From Rhizobium sp. Q54 (GTDB taxonomy: Bacteria > Pseudomonadota > Alphaproteobacteria > UBA2966 > CAIVPW01), in NCBI GenBank assembly GCA_945947575.1, contig CAMEYM010000026.1, positions 1 through 34,200 of the forward strand: a DNA stretch of 34,200 nucleotides, in the 5' to 3' direction. Shown here one piece after another: positions 1 to 32,612 of this stretch (its first letter is position 1; every line of letters begins with the position of its first letter). A model generated the notes under the pieces. The model worked only from the letters and a program-made list of their open reading frames with translations, was not told where the DNA came from and did not search any database. Position numbers and translations under genes: made by a program.

Positions 1-2097
1 GGCGACGATGCCGGCGTTGCCGTCGCGGCCGTCGGCGGCGAGTTTCCCATCGACGTCGCGCAGGAGCAACGCGCGCCCGGCGTTGGGGCTTTCGGCAACC
101 AGATCCGGACCGACCACCAGCACGACTCGCTCTGCGAACTCGCGCACCGCGGTCGGCACTCCGGCGAGAGCGGCGACGACGAGGCCGATGGCGGCCGCCC
201 GCAAGCCGAGCTGCGCACGCCGGCGTCCGGCGAGAGCGCGGCCGTAAGCGAGAGCGCGGAGGGTCAGGAACTGCTCGCTGCCCCGCCCGGCGATCCACGT
301 CTCAGCGATCAACGCAACCAAGGCCGTGACCAGCAACCACCGCCAGAGCGGCGGCAGAGTTTGGTCCGGCGGCGACACTGGATTGCCGTCACCCAGTGGC
401 GCCAATGCGGTCTCCGTCGCGCCGGCACGATTGACGGCGACCCACCGCCGGCTCTCTCCGGATTGGAGCGCGTAGAGCCCAGCACGCGCCGGCACGAAGG
501 CGGCGTCGGCGCCCGAGAGGAGAAACTCGGCGTCCGCGCGCCCCCGCGAAACCGTCGTGCCATCGGGTGCGATAATCTGCGCCGAACTCCGGCGCGCTTC
601 GATCGAGCACGCAACGCCGACGACGCAGGGTTGCGTGGCGGGCCCAAGCCAGCGCATCACGTTGTTCAGGAATAAGGGGAGTCCGGCGCTGTCGGCCCAC
701 CCGGAGCCGGCGAGATCGAACGCGACCTGGATCTCCCGCCCAGCCGGGGTCGTGCGCGCCTGCACCAGGGGTCCGTGTGTGGCCTCCGCGAGCACCGTGG
801 CGCCCGGCAGCCGTTCGACGCGATAAGCGCGCGGCGGCGCGATCGACGTCCAGTCGAGCTGATCGGACAGGGGATGGGTTGTGTCCCAGCCGGTGATGTA
901 CGGAGCGCCGAGCGGCGCCGGTGGTGGCTGACCGCCGGCGTGCGCCGCGCCGAGCCAAAGCACGTTGGTAGCGGGGCGGCGCGCTACCGCGACCCCGTCG
1001 ACCACGACGAGGTCGAAGGTGTGGTCGTCCGCCGGCAAACGGTCGGCGCTGAGAAGCTCGACGGCGTCCATCGCCTGCAGGGCGATCAGCAGCGGGCCGT
1101 CCGCGGCACCGACATAGAGAACGCGGGCGCGCACGGGGCCGGGGTCCACAACGAAATACATGGCGTTGTCGTGTGGCCCTGCGTCGTCGGGCAGGCGCAA
1201 CTCGACGGCGCCGGGGCCGGGAAGCTCCAGCATCAGATCGAAGGCAACGCTCGGCGGTCCGCCTCGGCGCGCAACACGCGTGGAGGCGAGCGGCGTGAAG
1301 GCGCCGCCGCCGCTTGGCTGGAACAAGGCCTCCAGCACGACGTCCGGCGGCGTGGCCCCGCCGAATTGCACCGTGCCGGTGACACGCCAGGTTCCGGGCA
1401 AGTCGGCGGCCGGCGCGAGGGCGGCCATCAGGCCGACGTTCGCGGCGTCGGCACCCGCAAAGACCCGGGCCGCAGCGATGTCAGCAAACGCATTCTGAAA
1501 ATCGGCCGCCGCCGGGTCGGCGCCATCGGTCAGCACGACGATGCGCGTCGCCTCGCCGTCGCGGCGGATGGTCGCCACCAAGGCGACGGCCGCTTCCCAA
1601 TCGGCGGCTCCGTCGCCCGCTTGCAGGTCCTCGGCGAGCGGGAGTATCCCGGCCGCTTCGCGCTGGCGGGCGACGTGGATGCGCGGCGCGGCGTCCACGT
1701 GAACGACGGAAATGCGCGTGCGGGAGTCTGCCGCCTCTGCGGCGATGGCCGCGAGCAGATGTTGGCGCGCGGCGGTGAAGCGACTGGGGGCGAGATCGGT
1801 CGCGCGCATGCTGCCCGATGCGTCCAGCACAAAGATCGTGTGCGCGGGAGCGTCGCGGCCGCCGAGTTGCGGCTGCGCCAAGGCGAGCGTCGCCAGGACG
1901 ACGACGAGCAATTGCAGCGCGAGCAGGAGGCTGGGCGGCGGAGCGCGCAGCGAACGGCGCGCCACGGCGGTGTTCTGCAGCATCTGCCAGATCAATACGC
2001 TGGGAACTTCGCGGCGGCGGCGGTTGCGCATATGCAGCACCAGCACCAGTGCCGTCAGTCCCCCGAGGAGCAACCAACCGGGGGCGAGGAACGTCAT
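1..2097 (-). CDS. BatA-like / von Willebrand factor A membrane protein, partial (C-terminus beyond left edge)
   Basis: The reading frame is open from an ATG at 2097 to the window edge, at least 699 codons. Residues 1-20 form a hydrophobic segment starting MTFLAPGWLLLGG, followed by an Arg cluster (RNRRRR) and a second hydrophobic segment at about 55-75. This is the layout of the N-terminal aerotolerance-regulator (BatA) domain. A VWA domain follows, with the metal-site motif DASGS (D92, S94, S96). Another membrane segment lies near residues 583-600, and more hydrophobic sequence near 635-645. The ATG overlaps the stop of the upstream membrane-protein gene by 4 bases (ATGA), so the two are probably coupled. 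BatA-type proteins usually sit beside MoxR AAA ATPases and DUF58 proteins; none is visible here, though one could lie beyond the left edge. The family assignment is fairly secure and the cellular role is not. Confidence 0.8.
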   Translation of the reverse strand, partial: MTFLAPGWLLLGGLTALVLVLHMRNRRRREVPSVLIWQMLQNTAVARRSLRAPPPSLLLALQLLVVVLATLALAQPQLGGRDAPAHTIFVLDASGSMRATDLAPSRFTAARQHLLAAIAAEAADSRTRISVVHVDAAPRIHVARQREAAGILPLAEDLQAGDGAADWEAAVALVATIRRDGEATRIVVLTDGADPAAADFQNAFADIAAARVFAGADAANVGLMAALAPAADLPGTWRVTGTVQFGGATPPDVVLEALFQPSGGGAFTPLASTRVARRGGPPSVAFDLMLELPGPGAVELRLPDDAGPHDNAMYFVVDPGPVRARVLYVGAADGPLLIALQAMDAVELLSADRLPADDHTFDLVVVDGVAVARRPATNVLWLGAAHAGGQPPPAPLGAPYITGWDTTHPLSDQLDWTSIAPPRAYRVERLPGATVLAEATHGPLVQARTTPAGREIQVAFDLAGSGWADSAGLPLFLNNVMRWLGPATQPCVVGVACSIEARRSSAQIIAPDGTTVSRGRADAEFLLSGADAAFVPARAGLYALQSGESRRWVAVNRAGATETALAPLGDGNPVSPPDQTLPPLWRWLLVTALVALIAETWIAGRGSEQFLTLRALAYGRALAGRRRAQLGLRAAAIGLVVAALAGVPTAVREFAERVVLVVGPDLVAESPNAGRALLLRDVDGKLAADGRDGNAGIVA

Positions 2098-6389: not shown

Positions 6390-7007
6390 CTAGTGCACCA
6401 CCGCTGAATCGAAGTCCGTAGCCAGAGCCGCGCGCATCTCATTGGACAGCCCGGCGGCGTGGCGGTAGGCGGGGTGCTTGATCTCCAAGGTCACCTCGGC
6501 GTTCTCGGCGCGGAAGGCGGCGATCTGGTCGCCGGCAAACGGGAAGTGCAGGAAGTGCACCGAGGACGTCTTGCCGGTCTCGGGATCGGTGCGCTCGACG
6601 TCTTGCTCCGGCACGGCCTTGACGACGTGGTCGCCGAAGCGGAGCTGGACCTGTTCCTCGATGTTGCCGAGCTTGACCAGCTCGCGGGCGCGGGCGACCG
6701 GGCTGTCGATCTCCAGCATCATGGTCGCGACCAGCTCGCGGCCGTTCGGAATGAGCGGGTTGTAGGCGGCGAGCTCGTCTTCCAACTGGGCGTCGCCGCC
6801 CTTTTCGGTGCGCAGCATCTCGTGCACCTGCACCCACATCGAGTCGTAGGACTCGAAGGTGAAGTGGGCGTAGGGCCCGACCTCGATCTGGCGGTGCTTC
6901 TTCTGGGCACGGATCTCGGCGCGCTTGGCGGACCGCACGGCTTCGTAGGCGTCGAGCGGCAGGATGTCCTCGCGTGTGATCGAGCGGCGTCTGGTGCGGA
7001 CCGTCAT
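6390..7007 (-). CDS. DUF3501 family protein of the rubrerythrin operon
   Basis: A 205-residue soluble protein from the ATG at 7007. The family is recognisable from [43 protein letters not shown]-like text ([10 protein letters not shown]), [11 protein letters not shown] and the C-terminal [16 protein letters not shown]. Its biochemical function is not known. It is the last of three minus-strand genes (rubrerythrin, Fe-S protein, DUF3501). Its ATG overlaps the Fe-S gene stop (ATGA at 7004-7007), which indicates translational coupling. Co-occurrence with rubrerythrin and a GlpC/HdrD-type Fe-S protein suggests a role in an electron-transfer or peroxide-defence path; that is inference from context. 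Confidence 0.88.
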
Positions 7008-8368
7008 TTCGAGACTCCAACTTCGATGCCGTAGGCGCGGGCGAACAACAGGATCGGGTGGACCGACTCTTTGATGTCGGCGCCCGGTTCGAGTTCGCGC
7101 GCGCCCTGGACGATGTGATCGCCGGCCAGAGGGCACTCGGACGAGACGTGCGCCGGTTTCAAGTCAAGCACACGGCGGAAGACCGGCTTGCCGACCTTCA
7201 GCGCTACGTCGAAGTTGGGCTTCTCTGCCCCCCACGCGCCGCCGTGACCCGAGCAGCGCTCGATGATCGTGACGTTGGCCTCGGGGATGAGCCGCAGCAT
7301 GTCGGCAGCCTTGGCGCCCATGTTCTGGGCCCGGGAGTGGCAGGCGATGTGGAGCGCGACCGGCTCGGGCATCGGCGCCAGCGTGCCGGCGAGGCCGTCC
7401 TTCTTGGCGACCTCGACGATGTACTCGGAGACGTCCCGCGTCGCCTTGGCGAGGCGGGCGACGTTCGCGTCCTTGGGCACGATCAGCGGCCACTCGAACT
7501 TCAGCATGAGCGCGCACGACGGGGTGAGCGCGACGATGTCGTAGCCCTTATCGACCCAGGCAATCAGATCAGCCGCAACTTTTCTGGCGCTGGTCGCGAC
7601 GGCAGCGAGATCGCCGATCTCCAGCTGCGGCATGCCGCAGCAGCCGGGATGGACGACGACCGTCTCGATGCCGTTGCGGGCGAGGACGGCGCGGGTGGCG
7701 AGGCCGATCTCCGGCTTGTTGAAGTTGCCGGCACAGGTTGCGTAGAGCACGACCTTGCGCTGAGTCTTGGTCCCTTGGGCGGCAGGCGTCACCGGCAGCG
7801 GCTCGCGCGCCGCGCGCGTCGTCAGCACGTCCTTGGCGGGCACGAAATCCGGCAGCCAGGCGCGCGGATGGATGTTGGCGGCGGCGGACAGGACCGAGCG
7901 GCCGAGCGTGTTGGTGACGCTGCTCGCCCAATTGGCGAGGCCGGCCATGTGCGAGGCGAGCGCGCCGTTGCGATCGGTCTTGCGGATCTCGCGTTGGGCG
8001 AACGTGACCTTGCCCTGGCGCTCCTCCATGACGCGGTGGCGCAGCATCAGGTGCGGGAAGTCGATGTTGAAGGCGTGCGGCGGCACGTATGGGCACTTCG
8101 TCATGAAGCACATGTCGCACAGCGTGCAGGCGTCCACGACCGGCTCGAAGTCCTTGGATTCGACGGTGTCGAGCTCGCCCGACTTGGCTGCGTCGATGAG
8201 ATCGAACAGGCGCGGGAAGGAGTCGCACAGGTTGAAGCAGCGCCGGCAACCGTGACAGACGTCGAACTGGCGGCGCTCCTCGGCGTCGAGGGCGGCGGGG
8301 TCGGTGTAGGACGGGTCGTCCCACGCGATGACGTGGCGAGTCGGTGCGCCGGTGCCTTCGGAGTGCAT
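7004..8368 (-). CDS. Heterodisulfide reductase-related (GlpC/HdrD-like) Fe-S protein with two CCG domains
   Basis: A 454-residue protein from the ATG at 8368, which has AAGAAG ahead of it; a longer frame to 8407 lacks such a site. Two Fe-S motifs sit near the N-terminus. The first is C38-x2-C41-x2-C44-x3-C48 ([11 protein letters not shown]). The second is C81-x2-C84-x2-C87-x4-C92 followed by Pro, with one residue more than the classical spacing. Two cysteine-rich CCG domains follow: [15 protein letters not shown] with [13 protein letters not shown], and [12 protein letters not shown] with CSGHGGAWG. Such domains bind non-cubane or additional Fe-S clusters and transfer electrons, as in GlpC and HdrB. 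Placed between rubrerythrin and DUF3501, it may feed electrons to the di-iron peroxidase; this is inference. No membrane segment is seen. Confidence 0.9.
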
Positions 8369-8418
8369 CGTTTCTTCTTTTCGTTCGAGCGGCGGGCGCT
8401 GTCGCACCGGTTTTCTTG

Positions 8419-8488
8419 CCCCTCACCCTGCCCTCCCCGTCGCGCCGGAGGCGCGCTACACGCGCGACGCGGGGGGAGGGTTGAGGGG
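8419..8488 (-). repeat. REP-like intercistronic palindrome between rubrerythrin and the Fe-S gene
   Basis: A 70-base imperfect hairpin starts with CCCCTCACCCTGCCCTCCCC and ends with GGGGGGAGGGTTGAGGGG, with the inner arms GTCGCG and CGCGAC closing the stem. It lies in the 135-base gap between the rubrerythrin stop and the Fe-S gene start, on the transcribed strand of both. Elements of the CCCTCACCC/GGGTGAGGG type are widely dispersed in proteobacterial genomes. A hairpin here could stabilise the rubrerythrin part of the mRNA or attenuate the downstream genes. Whether it is a family member in this genome cannot be seen from one copy. Confidence 0.65.
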
Positions 8489-8503
8489 AGAGTGCGGCGG
8501 CGA

Positions 8504-8923
8504 TTAGCCGAGGGTGTCGAGGGCCTTTTGGAAGCGGCCGGCGTGGGAGCGCTCGGCTTTGGCGAGGGTCTCGAACCAGTCGGCGATCTCCTCGAAGCCT
8601 TCCTGGCGCGCGGTCTTGGCCATGCCCGGGTACATGTCGGTGTACTCGTGCGTCTCGCCGGCGATGGAGGCGGCGAGATTGAGCTTGGTCGCACCGATCG
8701 GCTTGCCGGTGGCGGGGTCGCCCGAGGCTTCCAGGTACTCGAGGTGGCCGTGGGCGTGGCCGGTCTCGCCTTCCGCGGTGGAGCGGAATACGGCGGAGAC
8801 GTCGTTGTAGCCCTCGACGTCGGCCTTCTGCGCGAAATACAGGTAGCGGCGGTTCGCCTGGGACTCGCCCGCGAACGCGGCCTTCAGGTTGTCTTCGGTC
8901 TTGCTGCCCTTCAACGCCTTCAT
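8504..8923 (-). CDS. Rubrerythrin (di-iron domain only)
   Basis: A 139-residue rubrerythrin without the C-terminal rubredoxin domain. Candidate di-iron ligands are E20 ([15 protein letters not shown]), E53 and H56 (EGETGHAH), E90 and E93 (AGETHEY) and E124 with H127 (AERSHAGRF). Rubrerythrins reduce hydrogen peroxide in the cytoplasm using electrons from rubredoxin or another carrier. Lacking its own rubredoxin, this protein needs an external donor, and the Fe-S protein encoded next is a plausible one. The start is well supported by AGGAGA 7 bases upstream of the ATG. A sigma70-like promoter and an ICE-like palindrome lie between this gene and irr, so iron or heme control by Irr is likely. 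Confidence 0.94.
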
Positions 8924-9012
8924 GGTCTTTCTCCTGTTCGTTAGCCGGAGGCTCGCGCGAACGAAGCGGCGGCACTATCCGTGCCACTACCTACGCTTGC
9001 GACTGTTCGCTC

Positions 9013-9041
9013 TATGTATGACGGCGCACGATTGCCGTCAA
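9013..9041 (-). promoter_or_regulatory. Predicted sigma70-type promoter of the rubrerythrin operon
   Basis: Read on the minus strand, TTGACG (9041-9036) and TACATA (9018-9013) are separated by exactly 17 bases. Transcription would start near 9005, giving a leader of about 80 bases before the rubrerythrin ATG. The -35 element starts 4 bases downstream of the ICE-like palindrome at 9046-9060. Confidence 0.6.
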
Positions 9042-9045
9042 TAGA

Positions 9046-9060
9046 TTAGAATTATTCTAA
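9046..9060. promoter_or_regulatory. ICE-like (Irr box) palindrome upstream of rubrerythrin
   Basis: A perfect 15-base palindrome, TTAGAA-TTA-TTCTAA on the plus strand (the middle base is the centre). It matches the core TTAGAA-N3-TTCTAA of the iron control element bound by Irr in alphaproteobacteria. It ends 9 bases short of the irr stop codon and begins 4 bases upstream of the predicted -35 of the rubrerythrin promoter. Its centre is about 48 bases upstream of the inferred start of transcription. That position fits an activator at least as well as a repressor. Confidence 0.7.
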
Positions 9061-9527: not shown

Positions 9528-9569
9528 TTGGAATGATTCCAAGATAGGGCGGCGGGCCGAAGATTGCCA
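9528..9569 (-). promoter_or_regulatory. irr promoter with overlapping ICE-like operator
   Basis: A perfect palindrome TTGGAA-TGA-TTCCAA occupies 9528-9542, two bases before the irr ATG. On the minus strand a weak sigma70-like pair, TGGCAA (9569-9564) and TATCTT (9546-9541), has a 17-base spacer. The -10 element overlaps the palindrome by two bases, so the start of transcription would fall inside it and the mRNA would be almost leaderless. The palindrome differs from the rubrerythrin one by a symmetric A-to-G change in each arm, plus a different 3-base centre. Negative autoregulation is the natural reading. Confidence 0.55.
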
Positions 9570-9577
9570 GCCCCCCG

Positions 9578-10162
9578 CTATTTGACGCTGGCCTCGAGGA
9601 TGAGGATGCGGCGCTCAAGCTCGGCGGTCTCGATGGCGCGGCGCTGGGTTTCGATGACGCTCGCGATCTTCTGGGCTTCGGACGGGGTCAGACGGCCCTC
9701 GCTGACCATGGCGGTGACGGTGCCCGCGGCGCGGACCGCGTCCTGGGCGGTGACGATCGCCGGGAGCTCGATGTCCACCGGCAGATCGCGGCGGGCCGGC
9801 AGGAGGCGCGTGCTGCAGATGCGCAACGCCGGGAGGTCGCCGGCGAGGGCGAGCGCCACGAGGCTGCGCGCGAAGGTCTCGGCCTGTTCATCCAAGAGGT
9901 TGCGGGCGATGAGGGTCGCCTTGTTGAGCGAGCCCTTGGGGCGGCCCGACCAGCCTTCGGTGAAGCGGCCGGTTTCCGGGTCGCGGCCGACAGGCGGGGC
10001 GGGCTCCGCATCCAAAAGAATGGGCGATCTATGGTCCCGCTGCTCCCGCTCTTCGCGCTCGCGCTCCAGATTGTCTTGGATGGCGCGGTGGACGCGGCCT
10101 TCGGCCTCGGCCTCAATTTGGTCCAGGGAAAGGCCGGAAAGGCTTGGTTTTCTGGGGATCAT
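9578..10162 (-). CDS. DUF5681-domain protein
   Basis: A 194-residue soluble, charged protein. The ATG at 10162 has GGAG 8 bases upstream; a TTG at 10174 is an alternative. The N-terminal third is rich in Glu and Arg (EREREEREQRDHRSP). The core GRFTEGWSGRPKGSLNKATL matches the DUF5681 signature, and it is followed by helices with LALAGDLPALRICSTRLLPARRDLP and a C-terminal helical stretch ending ETAELERRILILEASVK. DUF5681 proteins are common in alphaproteobacteria, often in or near phage packaging genes, and resemble small terminase subunits or DNA-binding adaptors; the function is not established. No phage gene is near. Its promoter carries two direct repeats suggesting tight regulation. Confidence 0.78.
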   Translation of the reverse strand: MIPRKPSLSGLSLDQIEAEAEGRVHRAIQDNLEREREEREQRDHRSPILLDAEPAPPVGRDPETGRFTEGWSGRPKGSLNKATLIARNLLDEQAETFARSLVALALAGDLPALRICSTRLLPARRDLPVDIELPAIVTAQDAVRAAGTVTAMVSEGRLTPSEAQKIASVIETQRRAIETAELERRILILEASVK

Positions 10163-10193
10163 GGGTCGCTCCAAACGGGCGGGTTTGGAGGAA

Positions 10194-10234
10194 ACAATAC
10201 ACTATGTGACTATTCGTGGCAATACATTATGTGA
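10194..10234 (-). promoter_or_regulatory. Promoter of the DUF5681 gene with two direct-repeat operators
   Basis: On the minus strand TTGCCA (10222-10217) and TATTGT (10199-10194) are 17 bases apart. Two 15-base direct repeats, CAATACACTATGTGA (10195-10209) and CAATACATTATGTGA (10220-10234) on the plus strand, differ at one base and are spaced 25 bases apart. One covers most of the -10 box and the other overlaps the -35 box. The second repeat contains the palindrome ACATTATGT. The segment is conspicuously AT-rich against its neighbours. Confidence 0.6.
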
Positions 10235-32138: not shown

Positions 32139-32612
32139 CTAGTCCTTCTTGTCGGCGTCGAGCGGCACACCGTAGAGCTCGAGGCGATGGTCAACCAGCC
32201 GAAAGCCGAGACGCTCGGCGACCTCGCGCTGCAGCTTCTCGATGCGATCGTCGGTGAACTCGATCACCTTGCCGGTGCGCACGTCGATGAGGTGATCGTG
32301 GTGCTGCTCGGGCGCCATCTCGTAGCGCGCCCGGCCATCGCCGAAGTCGTGGCGCGCCAGAATGCCGGCATCCCCGAACAGGCGCACGGTGCGATAGACC
32401 GTGGCGATGCTGATCTTGGGATCGACCGCGCTCGAGCGGCGATGCAGCTCCTCGACGTCAGGATGATCGGCCGATTCGGACAGCACGCGAGCAATGATGC
32501 GGCGTTGCTCCGTCATGCGGATGCCGCGCTCGCTGCACAACTCGTCGATCCGGCGCGAGTCCGGCGTGTTTCCGTGTTCCGAAACCTTGGCGCCGGACGG
32601 CACAGCAGGCAT
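32139..32612 (-). CDS. fur: Fur-family metalloregulator (Fur/Mur)
   Basis: A 157-residue protein. The winged helix has DELCSERGIRMTEQRRIIARVLSES and ISIATVYRTVRLFGDAGIL. The metal-binding region has HDFGDGRARYEMAPEQHHDHLIDVRTGKVIEFTDDRIEKLQREVAERLGF. It has no CxxC pairs, so the structural zinc site of classical Fur is absent. In alphaproteobacteria this class includes Mur, which senses manganese, and Fur, which senses iron; which of the two cannot be told here. It follows mucR by 9 bases. AAGAAGG is directly before the ATG at 32612, too close for an ideal ribosome site. Irr encoded elsewhere in the window gives the cell a second Fur-superfamily regulator. Confidence 0.9.
   Translation of the reverse strand: MPAVPSGAKVSEHGNTPDSRRIDELCSERGIRMTEQRRIIARVLSESADHPDVEELHRRSSAVDPKISIATVYRTVRLFGDAGILARHDFGDGRARYEMAPEQHHDHLIDVRTGKVIEFTDDRIEKLQREVAERLGFRLVDHRLELYGVPLDADKKD

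Follow-up and report, generated by a model that had tools for sequence, protein, structure and literature searches.

A 15-base palindrome resembling the Irr box (ICE) separates irr from a rubrerythrin gene in Rhizobium sp. Q54, and a box of this kind recurs before most rubrerythrin genes examined in related genomes. On sequence evidence, the palindrome is very probably an operator for Irr, repression and activation being counted together. That Irr represses rubrerythrin from this site is preferred over activation, at a confidence close to even.

The irr-rubrerythrin locus

The window, that is, the whole stretch of DNA analysed, comprises positions 1-34,200 of contig CAMEYM010000026.1 (34,200 nucleotides), from a genome of 2.49 Mb that is 95.7% complete. 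The order on the minus strand is irr, 9 bases, the palindrome, TCTA, TTGACG, 17 bases, TACATA, rubrerythrin, a CCG-domain iron-sulphur gene and a DUF3501 gene, with these features:

9528-9542, no strand: second palindrome TTGGAATGATTCCAA, likely autoregulatory site, covering a -10-like TATCTT box and ending 2 bases from the irr start codon
9070-9525, minus: irr gene, 151 amino acids, without cysteine, with an HHH motif (NCBIfam NF045678 and NF045677; alignment)
9046-9060, no strand: Irr-box (ICE)-like palindrome TTAGAATTATTCTAA, putative operator (letters, motif match, conservation before rubrerythrin)
9042-9045, minus: spacer TCTA from palindrome to -35 box (CTA or CTG kept in relatives)
9036-9041, minus: -35 box TTGACG (sequence; same place in relatives)
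9013-9018, minus: -10 box TACATA, a weak match (3 of 6 bases of the consensus), invariant within the genus
about 9006, minus: putative transcription start, +1, placed 7 bases past the -10 box
8931-8935, minus: AGGAG, likely ribosome-binding site of rubrerythrin (read from the sequence)
8504-8923, minus: rubrerythrin gene, 139 amino acids, without a rubredoxin domain (Pfam PF02915, 102 bits; nearest structures 9onm and 4di0)
7004-8371, minus: iron-sulphur/CCG-domain oxidoreductase gene, second gene of a likely operon (Pfam PF02754)
6390-7013, minus: DUF3501 gene, third gene of the likely operon (Pfam PF12007, 196 bits)

No terminator was found between irr and rubrerythrin. An earlier note on this DNA had named the target a rubrerythrin, and the domain match bears this out; the protein is single-domain, and 9onm and 4di0 are the closest solved rubrerythrins. 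Excerpts of a report on ferriperoxin, a single-domain rubrerythrin-type protein of Hydrogenobacter, describe reduction of hydrogen peroxide and organic hydroperoxides (PMC3317640). The CCG-domain gene follows rubrerythrin in 70 of 76 loci, five of the six without it being short fetched stretches (L214-L218), and rubrerythrin, the CCG-domain protein and the DUF3501 protein (6390-8923) possibly form an electron-donor operon for a rubrerythrin that has no rubredoxin domain.

Just upstream of the gene at 9578-10174, whose product weakly matches DUF5681, a direct repeat is present as CAATACACTATGTGA (10195-10209) and CAATACATTATGTGA (10220-10234), 25 bases apart. The repeat at 10195-10234 was spotted by eye, and the automatic repeat search at its seed length does not list it.

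Geometry and conservation of the palindrome

The earlier note had described an exact Irr-box core that ends 4 bases from a promoter and is centred near -48. The core TTAGAA-N3-TTCTAA, which we take to be the Irr-box consensus and which its class-wide association supports, is present near the promoter at 9046-9060 with all 12 core bases, as expected of an ICE/Irr box. TCTA (9045-9042, minus strand) separates it from TTGACG, and counted from the putative start at about 9006 the box spans -54 to -40 with its centre at -47, one base from the position claimed.

Within the window, two motif matches occur at up to 2 mismatches, against 0.04 expected in shuffles. The genome scan for the 15-mer that the note had proposed finds 9046-9060 as the sole match at up to 1 mismatch in 2.49 Mb, but the backwards control also has 1 match, so that genome-wide rarity of the palindrome alone proves little. 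At up to 2 mismatches there is no excess in the whole genome (34 matches against 51 in the backwards control), and weak sites are for that reason not read as targets. In seven relatives (G001-G007), match numbers at up to 1 mismatch are at or below the control in six, the seventh, G005, having 13 against 10. Perfect matches to TTRGAA-N3-TTCYAA number only two in the window's genome, one before rubrerythrin and one over the irr start.

The real evidence that the palindrome is a likely functional site is its conservation. Among 61 related genomes searched, a close rubrerythrin (E 2e-51 or better) occurs in 35, and match coordinates place irr directly upstream on the same strand in 32 of these. 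The three exceptions are G030, with irr 1.4 kb upstream, and G020 and G034, which have no irr match and also no box, the best candidates having 4 and 5 mismatches. All loci pooled give 76 distinct rubrerythrin upstream regions; irr is adjacent in 71, and a box with up to 3 mismatches is present in 71. Cultivable relatives that share the arrangement include Parvibaculum sedimenti (L038), Nitrospirillum (L039, L043) and Magnetovibrio (L114). The five regions lacking the box comprise two without irr (L024, L214) and three with it (L027, L048, L216), L027 having a 4-mismatch remnant in the same place. A chance palindrome without function, to which the equal count of one in the genome and in the backwards control might point, is refuted for practical purposes, since 71 of the 76 regions keep both place and sequence; its probability is negligible.

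Spacing was counted in an earlier pass of 50 distinct regions, 41 of which show TTGAC no more than 12 bases past the box. The distance between the two is 3, 4, 5, 6 or 7 bases in 2, 31, 4, 2 and 2 of these, respectively, and the -35/-10 spacing of the rubrerythrin regions varies from 16 to 19. Since the gap is fixed while the -35/-10 spacing varies, the box is anchored to the -35 box and not to the start. The last three spacer positions of the 31 gap-4 regions are C (22), T (27) and A (22) or G (9); other TTGAC sequences are preceded by CTA in 3 of 344 cases and by CTG in 15 of 344. In G030 (L215, about 1125-2020, minus strand), a redoxin gene (Pfam PF08534) lies between irr and rubrerythrin and the module occurs twice, as a box with ACTA-TTGACA before the redoxin gene and as a box with TTGACG 4-5 bases on before rubrerythrin. 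The box and the -35 box behave as one portable unit attached to peroxide-reducing genes. No description of an irr-rubrerythrin site was found in the literature searched; Rodionov 2006 and Rudolph 2006 lie outside that search, so the site may already be published.

The regulator and other candidate readers

The earlier note had also called the adjacent gene irr, and the curated models agree: its product scores 191 bits against NF045678 (cut-off 150) and 177 bits against NF045677 (cut-off 170), and passes none of the PerR or Fur curated models. The PerR models gave 67 of 200, 61 of 250, 49 of 180 and 40 of 200 bits (score and cut-off), which places the protein outside PerR. Alignment locates the HxH haem motif of Irr at H106-H107-H108. 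As the 151 residues include no cysteine, the protein has neither the Cys-Pro haem regulatory motif linked to degradation nor the structural CxxC zinc site of PerR. Excerpts of a review (PMC7762939) give the Cys-Pro motif for Irr of some genera and another mechanism for R. leguminosarum; the motif is a feature of an Irr subset, not a family requirement. Irr proteins bind DNA when haem is absent and release it or are degraded when haem is present; a ferrochelatase gene is present in the window's genome.

A second Fur-family gene, Fur-like, lies at 32172-32531 on the minus strand of the contig that carries irr, some 22 kb away from it, and scores 102 bits to PRK09462, below the cut-off of 146. 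A third Fur-family gene is on contig C20.

It is improbable, though worth weighing, that another Fur-family protein reads the box (the Fur-like product of 32172-32531 or a PerR-like sensor), or that Irr acts as a PerR-type metal-dependent peroxide sensor. In the alignment, H52, D100, H106, H108 and D119 of Irr match five positions that we take to be the metal ligands of PerR, and the class-wide targets described below are peroxide genes. Compared with the B. subtilis PerR box TTATAATNATTATAA, the palindrome has 2 mismatches in 15 positions, and the same source reports perR-rbr operons from Desulfovibrio and Geobacter (PMC545781). However, the box accompanies an adjacent irr and is lacking in genomes without irr, the best PerR model stops far below its cut-off at 67 of 200 bits, and the structural zinc cysteines are absent. 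Irr from the adjacent gene is preferred as the probable reader.

The second palindrome fits this assignment. Both sites, before rubrerythrin and before irr, were found in all seven relatives tested (G001-G007). In other species (L009, L069, L073) the site before rubrerythrin has the form TTGGAA...TTCCAA, with TTGAC after it; one protein therefore probably reads both palindromes. The local Irr circuit that the earlier note thought likely is well supported, since the only two perfect matches genome-wide are those of rubrerythrin and of irr itself. By this strict match test, which leaves weaker sites uncounted, the results suggest that Irr has two strong predicted sites in this 95.7% complete genome.

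The rubrerythrin promoter

The promoter had been called good, which overstates it. TTGACG agrees with the -35 consensus at 5 of 6 bases, TACATA with the -10 consensus at only 3 of 6, and a threshold promoter scan reports no promoter there. The five genomes of the genus that were examined (G000-G004) nevertheless share TTGACG-17-TACATA without change. The -10 score of TACATA is 0.59, against a mean of 2.96 for 58 promoters with an upstream box. Promoters with the box upstream and those with the box in the core hardly differ in -10 strength (means 2.96, n=58, and 2.72, n=31; p 0.96), and among the 58 upstream-box promoters box quality has no link to -10 strength (rho 0.08, p 0.58). As core-promoter strength shows no difference between the geometries and no dependence on box quality, this test gave no sign of general activator dependence among upstream-box promoters.

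Box position across the class

A search of 385 alphaproteobacterial genomes for a box, 0-30 bases and TTGAC gave 55 matches in 52 genomes, against 9 in the backwards control, with a gap of 4 in 25 and of 6 in 12. Thirty loci were fetched from this search; 19 have the irr-box-rubrerythrin arrangement and the others include genes for SufB, a KatG-type peroxidase and AhpC. Boxes downstream of TTGAC in the 385 genomes front genes for AhpC, KatG-type peroxidase, catalase, Dps-like ferritin, redoxin, MbfA-like proteins, SufB and Rrf2, and in this core-promoter set the box centres cluster near -17, -6 and 0 (class-wide target loci L118-L121, L131, L135, L140 and L159-L188). These predicted targets suggest that Irr regulates peroxide defence in many lineages.

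Automatic promoter choice places 55 of the 71 rubrerythrin boxes at -46 to -50, 9 at -17/-18 and 7 elsewhere. Four of the nine at -17/-18 also have TTGAC 4 or 5 bases downstream; these are L133, L144, L190 and L198, where a rival promoter with the box at -17 outscores TTGAC at gap 4 or 5. For L010, L029, L031 and L057 the automatic choice differs from the reading by eye. The rubrerythrin box is inside the core promoter in families f36 (L017, L183, L184) and f92 (L181, L182) and in two genera of f2 (L022, L023, L029, L031), the core placement of L017, L022, L023, L029 and L031 resting partly on reading by eye. Family f2 is a sister family within the window's own order, and L171 (f51) has a box at both positions. 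On a tree of 68 Irr rows, with the core labels of L022, L023, L029, L031 and L169 set by eye and L181 and L182 not among the rows with usable irr, parsimony needs 5 changes between upstream and core position; a single change is all that the starred branches require, and the tree does not fix how often the position switched.

Repression or activation

In the preferred reading, Irr from the gene just upstream would control the rubrerythrin operon through the palindrome. One Irr dimer would bind -54 to -40, hard against the -35 box, where it would crowd the landing site of sigma region 4 and alpha-CTD. Rubrerythrin would be kept low when haem or iron is scarce and released when Irr is inactivated by haem or an oxidant, and the second site over the irr start would close a negative autoregulatory loop. 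The earlier note had judged the position to suit an activator, while allowing that Irr might block upstream contacts. An overlap with the -35 box, the -10 box or the start, typical of repressed promoters, is absent here; the palindrome ends 4 bases upstream of the -35 box, a position typical of activated ones. Neither positional feature decides function, and an adjacent box does not exclude repression. A box between or over the -35 and -10 boxes usually results in repression, and the core-promoter boxes in f36, f92 and part of f2 for that reason favour repression; a uniform sign is simpler than a change of sign inside one order, though such a change is possible. Excerpts from work on R. sphaeroides describe Irr binding to the ccpA upstream region with a KD of 0.9 uM, a ccpA start about 40 nt downstream of the Irr box, and ccpA expression 1.8-fold higher without irr at low iron, that is, mild repression (PMC3413700). 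Of the note's two suggestions, the one that suits an activator keeps the fixed 4-base gap in its favour and has against it the core-promoter boxes of other lineages and this mild repression at the same distance; blocking of upstream contacts is at least as likely as activation.

Several observations run against repression. A steric repressor needs no exact gap, and the gap of 4 in 31 of 41 regions together with the conserved spacer argues against one; the site ends upstream of the -35 box, and the -10 box of the window is weak, as in activated promoters. In excerpts of the same R. sphaeroides study, hydrogen peroxide lowers ccpA about 5-fold and raises mbfA, whose start is inside its box, about 9-fold (PMC3413700), and these opposite responses are counted against repression. 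Irr might instead be a direct activator, a reading that is a serious possibility though short of even: docked at -54 to -40, it would touch sigma region 4 and/or alpha-CTD and stimulate a weak promoter under shortage of iron or haem, and iron-poor cells would then make more rubrerythrin. Consistent with this are the distance to TTGAC, exactly 4 bases in 31 of 41 rubrerythrin loci while the -35/-10 spacing ranges over 16-19, the class-wide gaps of 4 (25 of 55 box and TTGAC matches) and 6 (12), the conserved asymmetric CTA spacer and the weak TACATA of the genus. Excerpted sources add that the location of its box decides whether Irr activates or represses (review PMC7762939), that the Streptomyces Zur activator protects down to -40 (PMC11077047), and that rubrerythrin mRNA of Ca. 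Pelagibacter ubique rises 1.57-fold under iron limitation (PMC2864753). Against activation, orthologous rubrerythrin genes in three families carry the box inside the core promoter, and box quality is unrelated to -10 strength (rho 0.08, p 0.58, n=58). In the excerpts available, R. sphaeroides ccpA is not lower without irr (PMC3413700), and activation of haem genes by B. japonicum Irr involves the coactivator HmuP (PMC11442138). The hmuP region of G372, a genome of Bradyrhizobium size, was included as a control for a known Irr-activated promoter; it has only a 3-mismatch match in 3.1 kb, which is chance level and bears on neither reading. A bolder form of activation, in which a single Irr dimer 4 bases from the -35 box would be a sigma-contacting, class-II-like activator of a di-iron peroxidase at iron shortage and sites moved to the core would have flipped sign, is rather unlikely.

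Expression reports from other organisms were consulted in excerpt. For Magnetospirillum they give a 2.1-fold decrease of rubrerythrin in anoxia and irr genes that are responsive to iron or to oxygen (PMC9549626, PMC5459824, PMC6532209); nothing on an irr-rubrerythrin site was found in the excerpts of these three papers. In sulphur-limited P. ubique, rubrerythrin mRNA goes down and the protein up (PMC5069961), which has no bearing on the sign.

Comparison with known systems

In its workings the site appears to resemble known Irr boxes. Those features of box and regulator that could be checked are present. It shares with the ICE/Irr box and Irr of Bradyrhizobium and Rhodobacter a palindromic core, an Irr-type regulator and an iron or peroxide target. 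The boxes of Bradyrhizobium bfr and mbfA are at the -10 box or start, and in G372 boxes were likewise placed there by eye, whereas the present box adjoins irr itself and keeps a fixed 4-base distance upstream of the -35 box. The R. sphaeroides ccpA box resembles it in having the start about 40 nt downstream and a peroxide-reducing iron enzyme as target; at the ccpA box, binding of Irr is reported (PMC3413700). The perR-rbr operons of Desulfovibrio and Geobacter also have a Fur-family regulator gene beside rubrerythrin and a palindromic operator, but the regulator is PerR and not Irr, the palindromes are different, and the Geobacter operator overlaps the -10 box (PMC545781). Streptomyces Zur at zitB is, like Irr, of the Fur family, and its downstream edge is at -40, a position that is predicted here; protection from -78 to -40 is given, in the excerpts, as the promoter-proximal region protected by a Zur variant (PMC11077047). 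Zur acts there as a hexamer with upstream copies, in contrast to the single 15-base site here (PMC11077047).

Implications

In this small-genome lineage, the results suggest that Irr would be a local peroxide/iron switch, not a global iron regulator. If activation were true, the conserved irr-box-rubrerythrin module would show, widely and in minimal form, a Fur-family protein activating a promoter directly. The relatives provide a natural series with the same regulator, target and operator, in which the operator occupies the core promoter in some lineages and a fixed place before the -35 box in others, and with both positions available the rule that box position decides between activation and repression by Irr is directly testable.
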